From: Sphingomonas flavescens
GTDB taxonomy: Bacteria > Pseudomonadota > Alphaproteobacteria > Sphingomonadales > Sphingomonadaceae
DNA: 64,000 nucleotides
NCBI RefSeq assembly: GCF_030866745.1
Contig: NZ_CP133016.1
Coordinates: forward strand, 558,001-622,000
Reading direction: 5' to 3'
The notes beneath the pieces are model-generated. The model was not told the DNA's origin. It saw only the letters and a list, made by a program, of their open reading frames with translations, and did no database searches. The position numbers and the translations under genes are program-made. Below, in pieces: positions 3,737 to 18,300 of the stretch; the stretch's first letter is position 1; every line of letters begins with the position of its first letter.

Positions 3737-4933
3737 ATGCGATGGCTGTTCCTAGTCTTGCTGTTTTTTACCTCTGCTGGCGAGGCCCAGACACCGCTGA
3801 CGCGCGCGCAGGCGGTTGGCGAGGATGCGCTCCAATATGCAGCGAAATTTGACGTCTCAGTAGCGGAAGCGACTCGGCGCCTGCGCGTACAAGAGGCCAG
3901 TGTCTCAGCCACGGAATCGATCGCTCGCGAATTCGCCGCCCGCCTTGCCGGCATTTCGATCGAACATGTGCCGGAATACCGCATCATCGTGCTGTTGAGC
4001 GGAACCGAACCCGTTCTCCCCCGGATGTTCGATGGTGTTCCGATCGTTTTTCGCACTGGGGCAAAGGCGACCCACAGCGACGCGATCCTCGCGCTAAGAC
4101 GGCATCTGATCGATTTTCGGGCCGACCTGCCGAATGCCCGCGGGGCCGGGTACGATCAGCGCACCGGCGAAATCGTCCTGCTCGTAACCAGCGCGGACGC
4201 CCGGAAATTCGGATTGGACGCCATCAAGACGCGCGCAGAAGAAGTGGGTGGCATACCCGTCCGTGTTGTCATCAACGAGCTGCGCGAAGCGAACATGAGC
4301 GCCTTAGGCGGTGGGCGGGTCGAGGGCCTGAATGCCCTGTCCCGTCGAAGCCTGTGCACGACAGCCTTCGTAATCACGAACGGGGAAACCAACGCGGTGA
4401 CGACCGCAGCCCATTGTCCTGACCAACTGACCTATGTCGATCCCGATGGCACGACCATGGAGTTGCCGATGATCGGCTCGTGGGGCGCAGGCTATCAAGA
4501 CGTGCAGATCAACGGCAGCCCAAGTTCTCCGTCACCTCTCTTTTACAGCAATAGGGGAGCGGGCACCCTGCGCCGGCTTGTGAGCTGGCGGAACGTCGCA
4601 AGCACGCGCGCAGGTGACTTCGTCTGCCACTATGGCGAGAGCTCCGGCTACAGCTGCGCGCTTGTCGAGCTAACGGACTATGCGCCACCGGGCACGCTGT
4701 GCGGTGGCCCGTGTTCACCCACCTGGGTTACCGTGCGCGGACCCGGTTGCGCTGGCGGCGATAGCGGTGGGCCGGTGTTCATCGGCGATGTCGCCTTCGG
4801 CATCGCCAAAGGGGTCAACCGAACCACGGACGGCCGGTGCCTGTTCTATTATTATATGTCGACAGATTATCTGCCGGCGCCCTGGCGGTTGCTCACCACA
4901 GCACCTAGCGCGCGCCGACGAGATCGCCCCTGA
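3737..4933 (+). CDS. Secreted trypsin-like (S1) serine protease with long N-terminal region
   Basis: 398 residues from ATG 3737, chosen because it opens a clear signal peptide ([17 protein letters not shown]). An upstream in-frame ATG at 3677 would bury that signal inside the msrB start. The protease domain occupies roughly 200-385, with His226 in TTAAHC, a candidate Asp255 and Ser343 in GGDSGGPVF. Paired cysteines around the active site suggest disulfides and export. Residues about 20-195 have no family I recognise and may be a pro-region, as in alpha-lytic protease. The 3' end overlaps the convergent panD by 29 nt. The Asp assignment is inference. Confidence 0.75.
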
Positions 4934-5324
4934 CCTGGTCGCTGCCGGGGACGGGTTCGGCGGGATCGTTACCGATTTTAACGACTCGGTTAGTCTCATC
5001 GACATGGATCACCGTCGGCACGAGGGTCCGCGCGAAGGCATCATCGAACATCGCATAGCTCATGATGATGACGAGATCGTCAGGATGGACGAGGTGCGCC
5101 GCGGCGCCGTTGATACCAATCACGCCCGTTCCGCGGGGGCCTGGAATGACGTAAGTCTCAAGCCGCGCGCCGTTCGTGATGTCGACGATCGCAACCTGCT
5201 CACCCTCAAGCAGGTCAGCGGCGTCCATCAGGTCGGCATCCATCGTTACCGATCCAACATAGTGCAGGTCGGCCTGGGTCACCGTCGCGCGGTGGATCTT
5301 CGACTTCATCATGATCCGCATCAT
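4905..5324 (-). CDS. panD: Aspartate 1-decarboxylase PanD
   Basis: 139 residues. It converts L-aspartate to beta-alanine for pantothenate and CoA synthesis. The proenzyme self-cleaves at Gly24-Ser25 (HYVGSVTMD) to form the pyruvoyl cofactor. Starting at the ATG at 5324 makes this Gly-Ser fall at residue 24-25, as in the E. coli enzyme, and a GGGAG sits upstream; the longer open frame to 5387 adds a tail unlike the family. Lys9 and His11 near the N-terminus are also in place. No other pan genes are nearby. The 3' end overlaps the convergent protease gene. Confidence 0.93.
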
Positions 5325-5391
5325 GACCGTGACTCCCAACAGGGCTCCTAACGGCCCGGCGCTAGCAGATTGTCGCTGAACGCACACTGTT

Positions 5392-5425
5392 CAAGTGCTG
5401 CGCTGCAATATCGCACTTGCAGCAC
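5392..5425 (+). repeat. Overlapping inverted repeats, candidate activator site
   Basis: CAAGTGC (5392-5398) is mirrored by GCACTTG (5413-5419), and GTGCTGC (5396-5402) by GCAGCAC (5419-5425). Both pairs are exact. The element lies roughly 130-160 bp before the transcription start predicted from the sigma-54 site, the distance at which enhancer-binding proteins usually bind. Its role is inference. Confidence 0.5.
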
Positions 5426-5435
5426 GCGGTGCGTA

Positions 5436-5452
5436 TTCCCAACTGCTGGGAA
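5436..5452 (+). repeat. 17-bp palindrome TTCCCA-N5-TGGGAA
   Basis: Perfect 6-bp arms around a 5-base centre, between panD and the pspC-like gene, about 100-120 bp before the predicted start site. It has the size of a dimeric regulator operator. No T-run follows, so it is not a terminator. Confidence 0.45.
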
Positions 5453-5461
5453 GTAGGACCA

Positions 5462-5472
5462 GTGGAATCCAC
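5462..5472 (+). repeat. 11-bp palindrome GTGG-AAT-CCAC
   Basis: Third short palindrome upstream of the sigma-54 site, about 80-90 bp before the predicted start. It is short enough to occur by chance; its interest comes from the clustering with the other two. Confidence 0.3.
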
Positions 5473-5526
5473 CGACTATGGCGGAATGGCATCGTGCAAG
5501 GTGCTGAATTTTCGTCGTTTTCTTAT

Positions 5527-5543
5527 TTGGCACGTCTCTTGCT
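5527..5543 (+). promoter_or_regulatory. Sigma-54 (RpoN) promoter upstream of pspC-like gene
   Basis: TTGGCACG-TCTC-TTGCT matches the RpoN consensus YTGGCACG-N4-TTGCW throughout, with the diagnostic GG (5529-5530) and GC (5541-5542) separated by 10 bases. Transcription would start near 5554, giving a leader of about 26 nt before the ATG at 5580. The enteric psp operon is sigma-54 dependent, so a site placed before a PspC-domain gene makes biological sense. Confidence 0.75.
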
Positions 5544-5579
5544 CTGTCACTGACGACAATTTGCCAATGGAGTTTGAAA

Positions 5580-5870
5580 ATGGAAACGCAGACCAATCAC
5601 GTCGCACTTCCGCTGCGCTCACATACAATCTTGGGCGTCTGCGAAGCGATCGGCGAGGAATTCGGCTTCAACCCCGTATATCTGCGCATCCCGTTTGCCG
5701 CGTCTGTGATCTACAGTCCGATGATGGCGATCGCCGCCTATCTGCTGCTTGGATTGGGCGTCCTTGCTGCCCGGCTGCTGGTCAAGGACAAGCAGCAGGT
5801 GACGGAGTCCGTCGCGCGATATGCCGACGATGGGGCGAACAGCCAGGTCGAGCTAAAGAAGGCCGCCTGA
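5580..5870 (+). CDS. PspC-domain membrane protein
   Basis: 96 residues from ATG 5580, with GGAG about 8 bases upstream; a TTG two codons earlier is possible. Residues about 13-65 match the PspC domain: ILGVCEAIGEEFGFNP is the usual turn before VYLRIPFAASV, followed by a hydrophobic helix (about 46-67) and a charged cytoplasmic tail. In phage-shock systems PspC senses inner-membrane stress with PspB and binds PspA. No pspA, pspB or pspF is in the window, so this is an orphan or part of a split regulon. A consensus sigma-54 promoter and three palindromes precede it. It ends 1 nt before the stop of the convergent gene. Confidence 0.8.
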   Translation: METQTNHVALPLRSHTILGVCEAIGEEFGFNPVYLRIPFAASVIYSPMMAIAAYLLLGLGVLAARLLVKDKQQVTESVARYADDGANSQVELKKAA

Positions 5871-5871
5871 C

Positions 5872-6567
5872 CTAGTAGTCGCCGCGGGCTTCGGCGCGGG
5901 CTTCGAGGAGATCGAATAAAGCGCGGTGTTGCAGCAGCAGTTGCTCGCCCCCGAACGCTAGCGCCCGCGCGCGGGCAGGCGCTTCGGTGCCATCGCCGAT
6001 CACCGCCAAAATCGAATTGTCGTCGGGCAGCGACGGCGCAGGAGACTCAATACCCGCCCGGGTTGCCGCCCGATCAAGCAGGCGGCGAATCGGCAACCAG
6101 TCGCCGACGAGCGCGGTCGCGGCGCCAAGCGAGCAGCCCTCGCGTTCGGACATAGCCAGAGTCTCCAGGGCATGCCGCGCGGCGACGAGGCTAGTTTCCG
6201 TCTCCCCCGCCCCCGGCGTGCTGGGCAATGGCCCCACCGCCGAGGTGAGGCGGACGAGAAACAGGCGTTCGCGCTCGAACCCTTCGGAGGCTCTGCCTAG
6301 CCACGCTTGGACGGCCCCCTTGGGCGCGCGCTGGAGCGCAAGTTCGATGACCCCCGGATACCGCCCGTGAAGGCTGCAAAGAAGGTGGACCGCGTCCGCC
6401 AAATCGCGGCCCGAATGGCGACCGGCGGCCTCAAGCAGCGAGTTCAAATATGAATGGCGTGCACAACCTTCGCCCGCGACGCGCGCGAGTTGAGCCTCGG
6501 CAACGCTGACCGGCTGAACATTCGCCAGCGCGGCTTTCTGCTGAGCGGCGGGCCGGAAATTCGCCAT
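5872..6567 (-). CDS. Unrecognised soluble protein
   Basis: 231 residues, rich in Ala, Leu and Arg and probably all helical, with no signal peptide or membrane segment. I do not recognise the family. Visible blocks are RHSYLNSLLEAAGRHSG (about 37-53) and a C-terminal region with GGEQLLLQHRALFDLLEAR. A strong ribosome site (GAGGGGAG) precedes the ATG. It lies 124 bp downstream of the chemotaxis receptor on the same strand and may be co-transcribed with it, though a hairpin lies between them. Confidence 0.65.
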   Translation of the reverse strand: MANFRPAAQQKAALANVQPVSVAEAQLARVAGEGCARHSYLNSLLEAAGRHSGRDLADAVHLLCSLHGRYPGVIELALQRAPKGAVQAWLGRASEGFERERLFLVRLTSAVGPLPSTPGAGETETSLVAARHALETLAMSEREGCSLGAATALVGDWLPIRRLLDRAATRAGIESPAPSLPDDNSILAVIGDGTEAPARARALAFGGEQLLLQHRALFDLLEARAEARGDY

Positions 6568-15371: not shown

Positions 15372-18300
15372 CTGAGCCCCTGCAGCGCGTAATCCTTGCC
15401 GACCGGCCCCTGACCCTGGCGGGTGTCCCGACCGGGTTCCTGCCGTGGCTGTCGGCCGATCTCGCGCGAGCCGCCGGCGGAACCGGTAAGGGCGGACGCG
15501 CCGTTGCCATTGTGGCCGACGAAGCCGCGATGCGTGCATTGGCCGAAACAGTTCCCCTGTTCGCGCCGGAAGTCGAAGTGCTGACTCTGCCGGGGTGGGA
15601 CTGCCTGCCATACGACCGAGCTTCCCCCGCCCTTCGGGTTATGGCCGAGCGCCTGGCGACGCTCAGCGCGCTACAAGCGAAGCGCGAGAAGCCGCAGTTG
15701 CTGATCACCACCGGAAGTGCCGCTTCGCAGCGATTGCTGACGGCATTCCGCGTCCGTCAGTTGACCCGCCGCATTGCAGAAGGCGAGCGCGTTGCGCGCG
15801 AGGCGTTGATCGAACAGCTCAATGCGCTTGGATACGAGCGCGCCGATACCGTCGCAGAACATGGCGAATATGCCGTCCGCGGCTCGCTGATCGACGTGTT
15901 TCCCGCGGGCGCGGAGTTTGCGCTGCGGCTCGACTTCTTCGGCGACGAGATCGACAGTCTGCGCAGGTTCGATCCCGCCGATCAGCGCTCGACCGACAGG
16001 GCCGACGCGTTTGTGCTGATGCCGGCTTCCGAGGCCCTGCTGGATGTCGATAGCATCAAGCGTTTCCGCTCGCGCTACCGCGAGGAGTTCGGCGCCACCG
16101 CCACCCAGGATCCACTGTATCAGGCCCTATCGGAAGGCCGCCGGATGGCGGGCATGGAGCATTGGCTACCGCTGCTGGAAGAGCGGCTAGAGACATTGTT
16201 CGATCATCTTGGCGATCATGACATTGTCTTCCGCGATACGGCCGCAGACCAGGCGCTGCAGAGCCGGCGCGAAGCCATCGAGGATTATTACCAGAACCGC
16301 GTTCGCGCGATGGAGGGCGAGCCGGGCAGCTACCGGCCGCTCGAGCCTGGAAAGCTTTATCTCACCGAACAGGAATGGACGCAGATCGTCGGTGACCGCC
16401 CTGTTCACCTTGCGTCGCCGTTTCCCGAGCCCGAGTCAGCCCGCATCATCGATTTCGGCGTGCAGCCCGCGCGCGACTTCGCGCCCGAGCGGGCTCAACA
16501 GGAGAACGTCTACGAAGCGGTCGCCAAGCATGTCGGCGAATTGCGGAAGAGCGGCCATAAGGTCGTCCTTGCAAGCTATACCCGAGGTGCGCGTGAACGC
16601 CTCGCAGGTCTGCTGGAAGACCACGGCCTCAAGTCGCAGAAGATGGCCGACAGCTGGCAGGAAGCGCTCGGCGTCAAGAATCAGCCCGCGCTGCTTGTGC
16701 TGCCTCTCGATCACGGTTTCACGACGCCAGAAGTTTCGGTGCTCACCGAGCAGGACATGCTCGGAGACCGCCTGGTCAGGCGGCGCAAGAAGCGCAAGGA
16801 CGCCTCGGCATTTCTCGAGGAGTTGGCGACGCTTTCGCCGGGCGATCTCGTCGTCCATGCCGACCATGGCATCGGTCGGTACGAGGGCCTGACGCAGATC
16901 AAGGTCGGCAACAGTCCGCATGATTGCGTCGCCCTTGAATATGCGCGCGGCAACAAGCTGTACGTCCCGGTCGAGAATATCGAGTTGCTGAGCCGCTACG
17001 GCAGCGAGAACGAGGGCGTAACGCTCGACAGCCTCGGCGGTGAGGCGTGGCAGCGGCGCAAGTCGCGGATGAAGGAGCGGATTCGCGAAATGGCGGGCGA
17101 GCTTATCAAGGTCGCCGCACTGCGCGCGACGCGGCCGGGCGTCATTGCAGAGCCGGACTCCAGCTATCCCGCCTTCGTCGATCGCTTCCCGTACGAGGAG
17201 ACGGACGACCAGGAGCGCGCGATCGCCGACGTCATCGAGGACCTAGGCGCGGGCAAACCGATGGACCGGCTCGTCTGCGGCGACGTGGGCTTCGGCAAAA
17301 CGGAGGTCGCGCTGCGAGCGGCGTTCGTGATGGCGATGACCGGAAAACAGGTAGCCTTGATCGGGCCGACCACCCTCCTCGCCCGCCAGCATTTCAAGAA
17401 CTTCGAGGAGCGGCTGCACGGTTTCCCGCTCAAGATTGGCCGCCTGTCGCGGCTGGTCCCCGCCGCCGAGGCCAAGAAAACAAAGGAGGGGCTGGCCGAC
17501 GGTACGGTCGATATCGTCATCGGCACGCACGCAATCCTGGCCAAGGGCATCGAATTCAAGCGGCTCGGCCTGGTGATCGTCGACGAGGAGCAGCATTTCG
17601 GGGTCACGCACAAAGAGCGGCTGAAGGCGCTGCGCGCCGACGTTCACGTGCTCACGCTAACTGCGACGCCGATTCCACGCACGCTGCAGATGGCGATGAG
17701 CGGGCTGCGCGAGCTATCCGTGATTCAGACACCGCCGGTCGATCGTCTTGCTGTCCGCACTTACGTTACGCCGTGGGACGGCGTGGTGCTGCGCGAGGCC
17801 CTGCTGCGCGAACATTATCGCGGCGGGCAGAGCTTCTTCGTCGCGCCGCGGATCGCCGATCTTCCTGACCTTGAAGAGTGGTTGCGGGAACAAGTGCCGG
17901 AAGTGAAATTCATCACCGCGCACGGCCAGATGAGCCCAACCGAGGTCGAGGAGCGAATGAGCGCTTTCTACGACCGCAAGTACGACGTACTTCTGTCGAC
18001 GACGATTGTCGAAAGCGGGCTTGATATTCCAACAGCGAATACGCTGATCGTGCACCGGTCGGACCGGTTCGGCCTAGCCCAGCTCTACCAACTTCGCGGT
18101 CGCGTTGGGCGTTCCAAGACCCGCGCCTACGCCTATCTGACCATGCCGGCGACGCGGTCGATTACCGAGGCGGCGCAGAAGCGGCTGCAGGTGTTGGCCG
18201 ACCTCGACAGTCTGGGCGCCGGCTTCCAGCTCGCCAGCCACGACCTCGACATTCGCGGTGCGGGCAATCTGCTTGGCGACGAGCAGTCCGGCCATATCAA

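Follow-up and report, generated by a model that had tools for sequence, protein, structure and literature searches.

A lone pspC gene of Sphingomonas flavescens is a probable satellite of a complete, expanded PspF/sigma-54 phage-shock regulon

Results

A stand-alone pspC gene between panD and a DUF6975 gene

The window analyzed here is a 64,000-nucleotide stretch (C1:558001-622000) of the genome of Sphingomonas flavescens, which comprises 2,656,862 bases in a single contig and is 99.95% complete. The gene under study has panD and a DUF6975 gene as its immediate neighbors, with no pspB among them (Table 1). Its product is a PspC-domain protein of 96 residues, as the preliminary description had it, that exceeds the Pfam gathering score; it fails the PspC equivalog model TIGR02978 (21.8 bits vs a cut-off of 104), of which it covers only positions 11-58 of 121, while the PspC of the psp operon in the same genome reaches 116.5 bits with this model. 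An AlphaFold2 model of the protein (mean pLDDT 68.6) places helices at residues 17-28, 33-45, 47-82 and 90-95, with low confidence past residue 70 and block means of 50-55 over residues 71-96. A search of solved structures against the family profile of the window protein returns no match at E ≤ 1. Among the 29 genus loci L109-L137, a DUF6975 gene is detected beside the window type of pspC in 20; it is also found next to pspC outside the genus (L050, L054, L066 and L067), and this neighbor may be cut off because the loci span only ~3 kb.

Table 1 Features in and around the pspC control region (window coordinates)
Feature	Position	Strand	Basis
panD (aspartate decarboxylase) ORF, divergent neighbor	4905..5387	-	PF02261, 165 bits
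Inverted repeat GCTGCAATATCGCACTTGCAGC, outside the pspC control region, goes with panD	5402..5423	.	Locus comparison, genome scan
Predicted PspF-type upstream activating site TTCCCAACTGCTGGGAA	5436..5452	.	Rank 1 in window with operon-trained matrix
GTGGAATCCAC, possible second activator site, weak	5462..5472	.	Inverted repeat, 10/11
Predicted sigma-54 promoter TTGGCACGTCTCTTGCT; -24 GG 5529-5530, -12 GC 5541-5542	5527..5543	+	Sequence, genome scan, conservation in related loci
GGAG ribosome-binding site	5569..5572	+	Read from sequence
pspC gene (probable satellite), 96 aa, ATG at 5580	5580..5870	+	PF04024, 30.6 bits vs cut-off 25
PspC domain, residues 15-58	5622..5753	+	Pfam match
Codons of conserved C-terminal motif A-N-S-Q-V-E-L-K-K-A-A, residues 86-96	5835..5867	+	Low entropy over most positions from -11 to -1
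DUF6975 gene, convergent neighbor, often adjoins the window pspC type	5872..6567	-	PF22391, 256.8 bits; synteny

The genome encodes a full psp operon and the sigma-54 machinery

We find that RpoN is encoded in one copy (PF00309, 65.1 bits, at C1:1699893), and that the sigma-54 activator domain gives four strong and two weak matches in the genome. One of the strong matches, at C1:635155-636150, is a PspF equivalog (TIGR02974, 492 bits vs a cut-off of 443.55), another passes the NtrX model and a third a PEP-CTERM-type response regulator model, and the fourth, which is NtrC-like, passes no cut-off among the 25 families shown. At 635.1-637.8 kb, pspF is divergent from pspA-pspB-pspC and shares a control region with them, and the PspA, PspB and PspC of this operon all pass their equivalog models. 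Besides the operon and the window gene, the genome has pspC genes at two more loci, one shared with a second pspA and one where pspC is again alone; similar promoters precede the operon and both of these loci.

The preliminary description had correctly found pspF and pspA absent from the window, since the PspA and activator matches all fall outside positions 558001-622000; a genome-wide search for a PspF-type activator and PspA recovers both, plus pspB and pspC. Its further proposal of a minimal, dispersed phage-shock response fails because a full pspF//pspABC operon exists ~73 kb from the window gene, and a minimal Psp system is ruled out.

A conserved sigma-54 promoter upstream of pspC

The sigma-54 consensus is GG-N10-GC with TTGGCACG-N4-TTGCW, and the window promoter agrees with it, as TTGGCACG-N4-TTGCT at 5527-5543 leaves a GG-to-GC gap of exactly N10. 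Transcription is predicted to start near 5554, giving a predicted leader of 26 nt; the promoter and leader of the earlier description are thus confirmed from the sequence, with the start as a prediction. Within the window, TGGCACNNNNNTTGCW has one exact match, the pspC promoter itself, and two matches at one mismatch, as many as are given by 51 of 100 shuffles. Genome-wide, TTGGCACGNNNNNTGMW has seven exact matches, four of which each precede one of the PspC loci (those of the window gene, the psp operon, the second pspA-pspC locus and the second lone pspC), a proportion that arises partly by construction because the pattern was drafted after inspection of these four promoters, all of which have the form TTGGCACG-N5-TG. 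At one mismatch, the same pattern finds 40 sites in the whole genome vs 35 for its backward control, i.e., about equal numbers, and the chance of a sigma-54 site within 300 bp upstream is, as a rough guide only, ~4e-4 per gene.

We consider conservation and an independently trained box, discussed below, to be the stronger evidence for the predicted promoter, rather than pattern counts. Of 58 related loci (29 from the family-sample search with our own locus left out, and 29 genus matches), 52 reach a promoter score of 19 or more in the 300 bp ahead of pspC, as do 26 of 2042 control stretches and, after shuffling, 1 of 1160 upstream regions; the score and threshold were chosen after seeing the loci, and the controls were run with identical settings. 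The expected conservation of the motif in related genomes is therefore found for the promoter. Six loci lack such a score (L068, L070, L071, L075, L076 and L077); L076 and L077 carry a second-type pspC, and their promoter lies ~1 kb upstream, ahead of the preceding genes.

Several observations concern other sigma-54 sites. At nine hand-picked PspC loci of other types, all nine show an ORF of 31-46 residues with a ribosome site after the sigma-54 promoter and before pspC or pspA (L024:1574-1681 and L025:1573-1710, from C1:1822806 and C1:2274176 on, and L069, L072, L073, L074, L076, L077 and L078). By eye, its product is a single-helix membrane or signal-peptide-like protein, and it occurs in several genera; the window locus has no room for such an ORF. 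An exact sigma-54 site at L022:1501-1517 (C1:1007826-1007842) is followed by no clear ORF; what can be made out by eye is an inverted repeat GAAGGGGCGG...CCGCCCCTTC with TTCATTTC after it, possibly a sigma-54-driven small RNA, or merely the terminator of a convergent ORF ending at L022:1616. Two further exact sites, at L019:1501 (C1:526111) and L023:1501 (C1:1709847), have a common GCGGTTTC just upstream, precede small ORFs of 86 and 73 aa, and are without a PspF box; they may answer to another activator.

An upstream box in common with the psp operon

The predicted upstream activating site is self-complementary at 14 of 17 positions, and the distance from the start of its CCCAAC half-site down to the TTGG in the -24 box is 89 bp. 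Four palindromic matrices, of widths 15-18, were trained on the psp-operon upstream regions of 27 other genus genomes, with no sequence of the S. flavescens genome included (27 of 30 operon loci were used, leaving out our own L001, the truncated L084 and the mis-anchored L080). The width-17 matrix (WTSCCAMMWKKTGGSAW) places 5436-5452 first among 63,984 window positions at 21.0 bits, with the next position at 10.3, and the width-15 matrix also places it first (18.0 bits, next 12.0); with widths 16 and 18 the site region ranks 63 and 5, in other registers of the composite operon site. Matrices derived from the 52 related pspC loci converge on a different register, TTGG-N9-CCAA, and at width 17 place 5426-5442 first in the window, a stretch that shares only the left half of the palindrome; width 18 places it second, and widths 15 and 16 place nearby registers fifth. 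Both trainings point at the 5436-5452 stretch, but in different registers, so that the palindrome is a candidate for the exact unit read by PspF.

We then find that the width-17 operon matrix, applied to 30 of the genome's 40 sigma-54-like sites, gives 23.7 bits at the psp operon, 21.0 at the window gene and 16.4 at the other lone pspC, and at most 0.7 bits at all remaining scored sites. The second pspA-pspC locus scores 0.3 bits, and the TTCCCAAC and GTTGGGAA half-sites are present there in another arrangement, further apart. A pattern composed after viewing the sites of the S. flavescens genome, TTCCCAACTGTTGGGAA, occurs at ≤2 mismatches in three places in the genome, two of which are PspC promoters, vs none for the backward control at ≤3 mismatches; the other genome copies of the box, at 2199171 (2 mismatches) and at 15384 and 1466487 (3 mismatches), each overlap an ORF of at least 94 aa. 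Judged by the operon matrices of widths 15 and 17, 5436-5452 is the same upstream box as that of the psp operon.

Among related loci, a [CG]CCAA[CT] half-site is present in 29 of the 30 loci L108-L137, in 25 of them at either of two positions ~10 bp (one helical turn) apart, with L108 and L109 being the same record (L109, from genome G184, is contained letter for letter in L108, whose protein is 65% identical to the window protein). The full palindrome exceeds 5 bits at 26 of the 52 promoter-bearing loci vs 42 of 2042 controls and 26 of 1160 shuffled regions, at a threshold set after seeing the loci and applied equally to the controls; TT[CG]CCAA or its complement is found at 27 of the 52, vs 62 of 2042 controls and 29 of 1160 shuffled regions. 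Conservation of the predicted promoter and the half-site extends from the genus to further genera of the family.

Three palindromes had been proposed as enhancer sites, of which 5436-5452 alone fits the role; this box recurs at PspC promoters and in relatives. The stretch 5392-5425 is not palindromic as delimited (10 of 34 positions self-complementary) and is rejected as an enhancer. Its inner repeat, GCTGCAA-N8-TTGCAGC, is found at 13 of 13 panD-detected loci, two of which (L108 and L109) are one record, vs 1 of 46 others (L116, a shorter locus) among the 59 loci checked; with a single genomic occurrence at ≤3 mismatches, it therefore probably serves panD. The third repeat, at 5462-5472, is real, but is rejected as a conserved activator site, as only 2 of 30 related upstream regions contain it when 2 mismatches are allowed.

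Distribution of the window gene in genus and family

A match to the window protein at E ≤ 0.001 is found in 60 of 61 genus genomes and at E ≤ 2.2e-8 in 56 of 61, our own included in both counts; other types of PspC may account for the weaker matches. The family sample (149 genomes) yields 26 with a match, again with our own. Exactly four PspC genes are present in 50 of the 61 genus genomes. The family-sample genomes (n = 149) most often carry two PspC genes (88 genomes), followed by one (34), three (14), none (10) and four (3), and the only three with four are genus members. PspF is detected in 138 of the 149 (E ≤ 1e-120), including all 26 that match the window protein, a co-occurrence that carries little weight because PspF is so common in the family. 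In genomes G000, G149, G201 and G203, a lone pspC lies ~64-74 kb from the pspC of the psp operon; G185 clearly differs.

A conserved C-terminal motif behind a hypervariable linker

The protein ends in a short motif whose terminal Ala-Ala is found in 118 of the best 120 of 1075 database homologues, these 120 being close relatives of one another; the two exceptions have unrelated ends. In the 118, the final 11 positions follow A-N-[ES]-Q-x-E-L-[AK]-K-A-A, with an entropy of 0 to 1.4 bits (2.3 at x), and the linker before the motif (-13 to -27, aligned from the end without gaps) is hypervariable at 2.75 to 3.64 bits. Conservation of a terminal Ala-Ala behind a variable linker, as seen here, is one feature of an SsrA-like C-terminal degron. 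Ala-Ala also ends 47 of 51 window-class proteins, including 14 of 18 rows from other genera, in a count over 51 of the 52 window-class loci that includes our own gene and leaves out L075, which gave no usable read-out; L108 and L109, one and the same record, are both among the loci. The same ending is found in 0 of 19 operon-class PspC proteins, 0 of 5 second-class PspC proteins and 8 of 255 ORFs with a length of 200 aa or more. Of the four window-class loci without it, L068 and L071 have operon-like (LR) tails and the other two end in HA and TA.

Across the sampled genome loci (n = 49, leaving out L068 and L071 from the entropy and residue tally), only -AA is near-invariant, with E, L/hydrophobic and A/P as the commonest residues before it. 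The third-last residue is most often L among these genome loci (15 of 49), and is K in 105 of the 118 best-listed homologues ending in AA; the window protein itself ends in KAA, without a terminal Leu-Ala-Ala. No tmRNA gene is present in the window or in the 47 loci read, 42 of which are from the S. flavescens genome.

Discussion

The promoter and the upstream box are present, conserved, and common to the psp operon of the same and of related genomes. We conclude, at a probability of roughly 0.83, that the window gene belongs as a satellite to a PspF/sigma-54 phage-shock regulon that is both complete and expanded; PspF binding, PspF/RpoN dependence, the inducing stress and the task of the protein are what we infer from this arrangement. 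The gene is very probably under sigma-54 control by a distant enhancer-binding protein, PspF, and regulation from a distance, as put forward in the preliminary description, is supported in that both rpoN and PspF are encoded and the psp-operon box recognizes the window site. PspA holds PspF until stress, according to the accessible part of one account (PMC9239133). Inner-membrane stress would then free PspF from PspA, and PspF, produced from the psp operon ~73 kb off, would bind 5436-5452 and drive sigma-54 RNA polymerase at 5527-5543, such that a short extra PspC-domain membrane protein would be produced together with the main psp operon. This protein may act at the membrane as a short-lived auxiliary PspC, with the conserved SsrA-like tail allowing proteases (FtsH, ClpXP or Prc) to remove it.

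A sigma-54 promoter alone does not name its activator, and three further strong activators, the NtrX-type, the PEP-CTERM-type and the unclassified NtrC-like protein, are encoded in the genome, any of which could drive the gene in place of PspF. We regard this as improbable, as the psp-operon box, which lies beside pspF itself, picks out the window site by a 10.7-bit margin, and the 26 non-PspC sigma-54-like sites scored are without the box. Still less credible is a promoter that is a chance match, with the gene transcribed from elsewhere: the near-equal numbers of one-mismatch sites in the genome and its backward control (40 vs 35), and a genome pattern drafted after seeing the sites, speak for such a match, but conservation at 52 of 58 loci, with the controls at 26 of 2042 stretches and the shuffled upstream regions at 1 of 1160, argues against it.

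The conserved tail looks like an SsrA-type degron, by resemblance of sequence: as in the SsrA tag, which in E. coli is AANDENYALAA (PMC9382460, as far as the text is available), a variable, low-confidence linker leads to a short tail with an Asn/acidic lead-in that ends in Ala-Ala. Unlike the SsrA tag, the tail here is genome-encoded on one protein family and usually ends in -KAA in the best-listed homologues. The gene may instead be an ordinary PspF satellite whose conserved C terminus serves to bind PspA, PspB or a membrane partner, a reading that we place somewhat short of even odds. The motif exceeds a bare -LAA, genus members have charged residues (KKAA, AKAA) where SsrA has L, and the window protein lacks an -LAA end, all of which fit a binding motif; on the other hand, the terminal -AA is the sole near-invariant part across the sampled loci (47 of 51, and 14 of 18 from other genera). 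SsrA tags commonly end in LAA, from which they are degraded, mainly by ClpXP, while FtsH, Prc and further proteases act on them at low affinity, in the portion of PMC9382460 consulted. In the accessible text on Yersinia, production of PspC is toxic without PspB, and PspC is then degraded by FtsH (PMC3467454); PspC is likewise named as an FtsH substrate in the available part of PMC12048511.

Taken together, the predicted control by PspF, the lack of an adjoining pspB and the SsrA-like tail suggest a burst of PspC that is cleared after stress. We advance, tentatively and at rather less than even odds, that sphingomonads may possess a PspF-induced stand-alone PspC class with its own genome-encoded SsrA-like destruction tag, in which a PspB-less and potentially harmful PspC would be made in a stress burst and cleared by FtsH, ClpXP or Prc once stress ends; whatever in this mechanism goes beyond the promoter and the box common to the psp operon, we infer.

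E. coli pspG is not known as a PspC paralogue. Like the window gene, it is a single Psp gene that lies away from pspF//pspABC, and it is an orphan target of PspF there (PMC9239133, in the part available), a role that is predicted here. Unlike pspG, the satellite genes in S. flavescens, at three loci other than the operon, encode proteins with a PspC domain and a second PspA. The genome resembles other proteobacterial pspF//pspABC systems in that PspF, PspA, PspB and PspC equivalogs are all encoded, with pspF divergent and a shared control region; it differs in that the window gene stands outside the operon, has no adjoining pspB and fails the PspC equivalog model. PspC genes are regularly found outside operons, often in multiple copies (accessible text of PMC9239133), and standalone pspC genes are mentioned in one kind of neighborhood in the available part of PMC11237479. 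Unlike the window gene, these are tied to no PspF box in the portions of the two papers seen, and no C-terminal motif is described there; the string "sphingo" has 0 occurrences in the available text of PMC11237479, as does "sphingomon" in that of PMC9239133.

Zymomonas is another genus of Sphingomonadales. A review of this organism includes PspA, PspB, PspC and PspF as reported under stress (PMC11186258, accessible part), and a comparison of Novosphingobium tabulates a PspC gene under phage integration, with PspF and sigma-54 unmentioned in the portion available (PMC5443232). We found no description of a satellite pspC in a PspF regulon, nor of the tail, in the open-licence PMC literature, where the matches listed for PspC and a degron contain only unrelated papers. 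The conserved C-terminal motif behind a hypervariable linker in the window PspC type is new here.

Much experimental work on PspC, as far as the sources seen extend, is enterobacterial, with PspC acting together with PspB. A stand-alone PspC with an apparent degradation signal of its own would offer a route to why unpartnered PspC is toxic, and to how the stress response ends. If the satellite reading is true, PspF would not just switch one operon (and pspG in E. coli) but would head a regulon of several loci with PspC paralogues, across a large environmental family, and the box described here could be used for charting that regulon.
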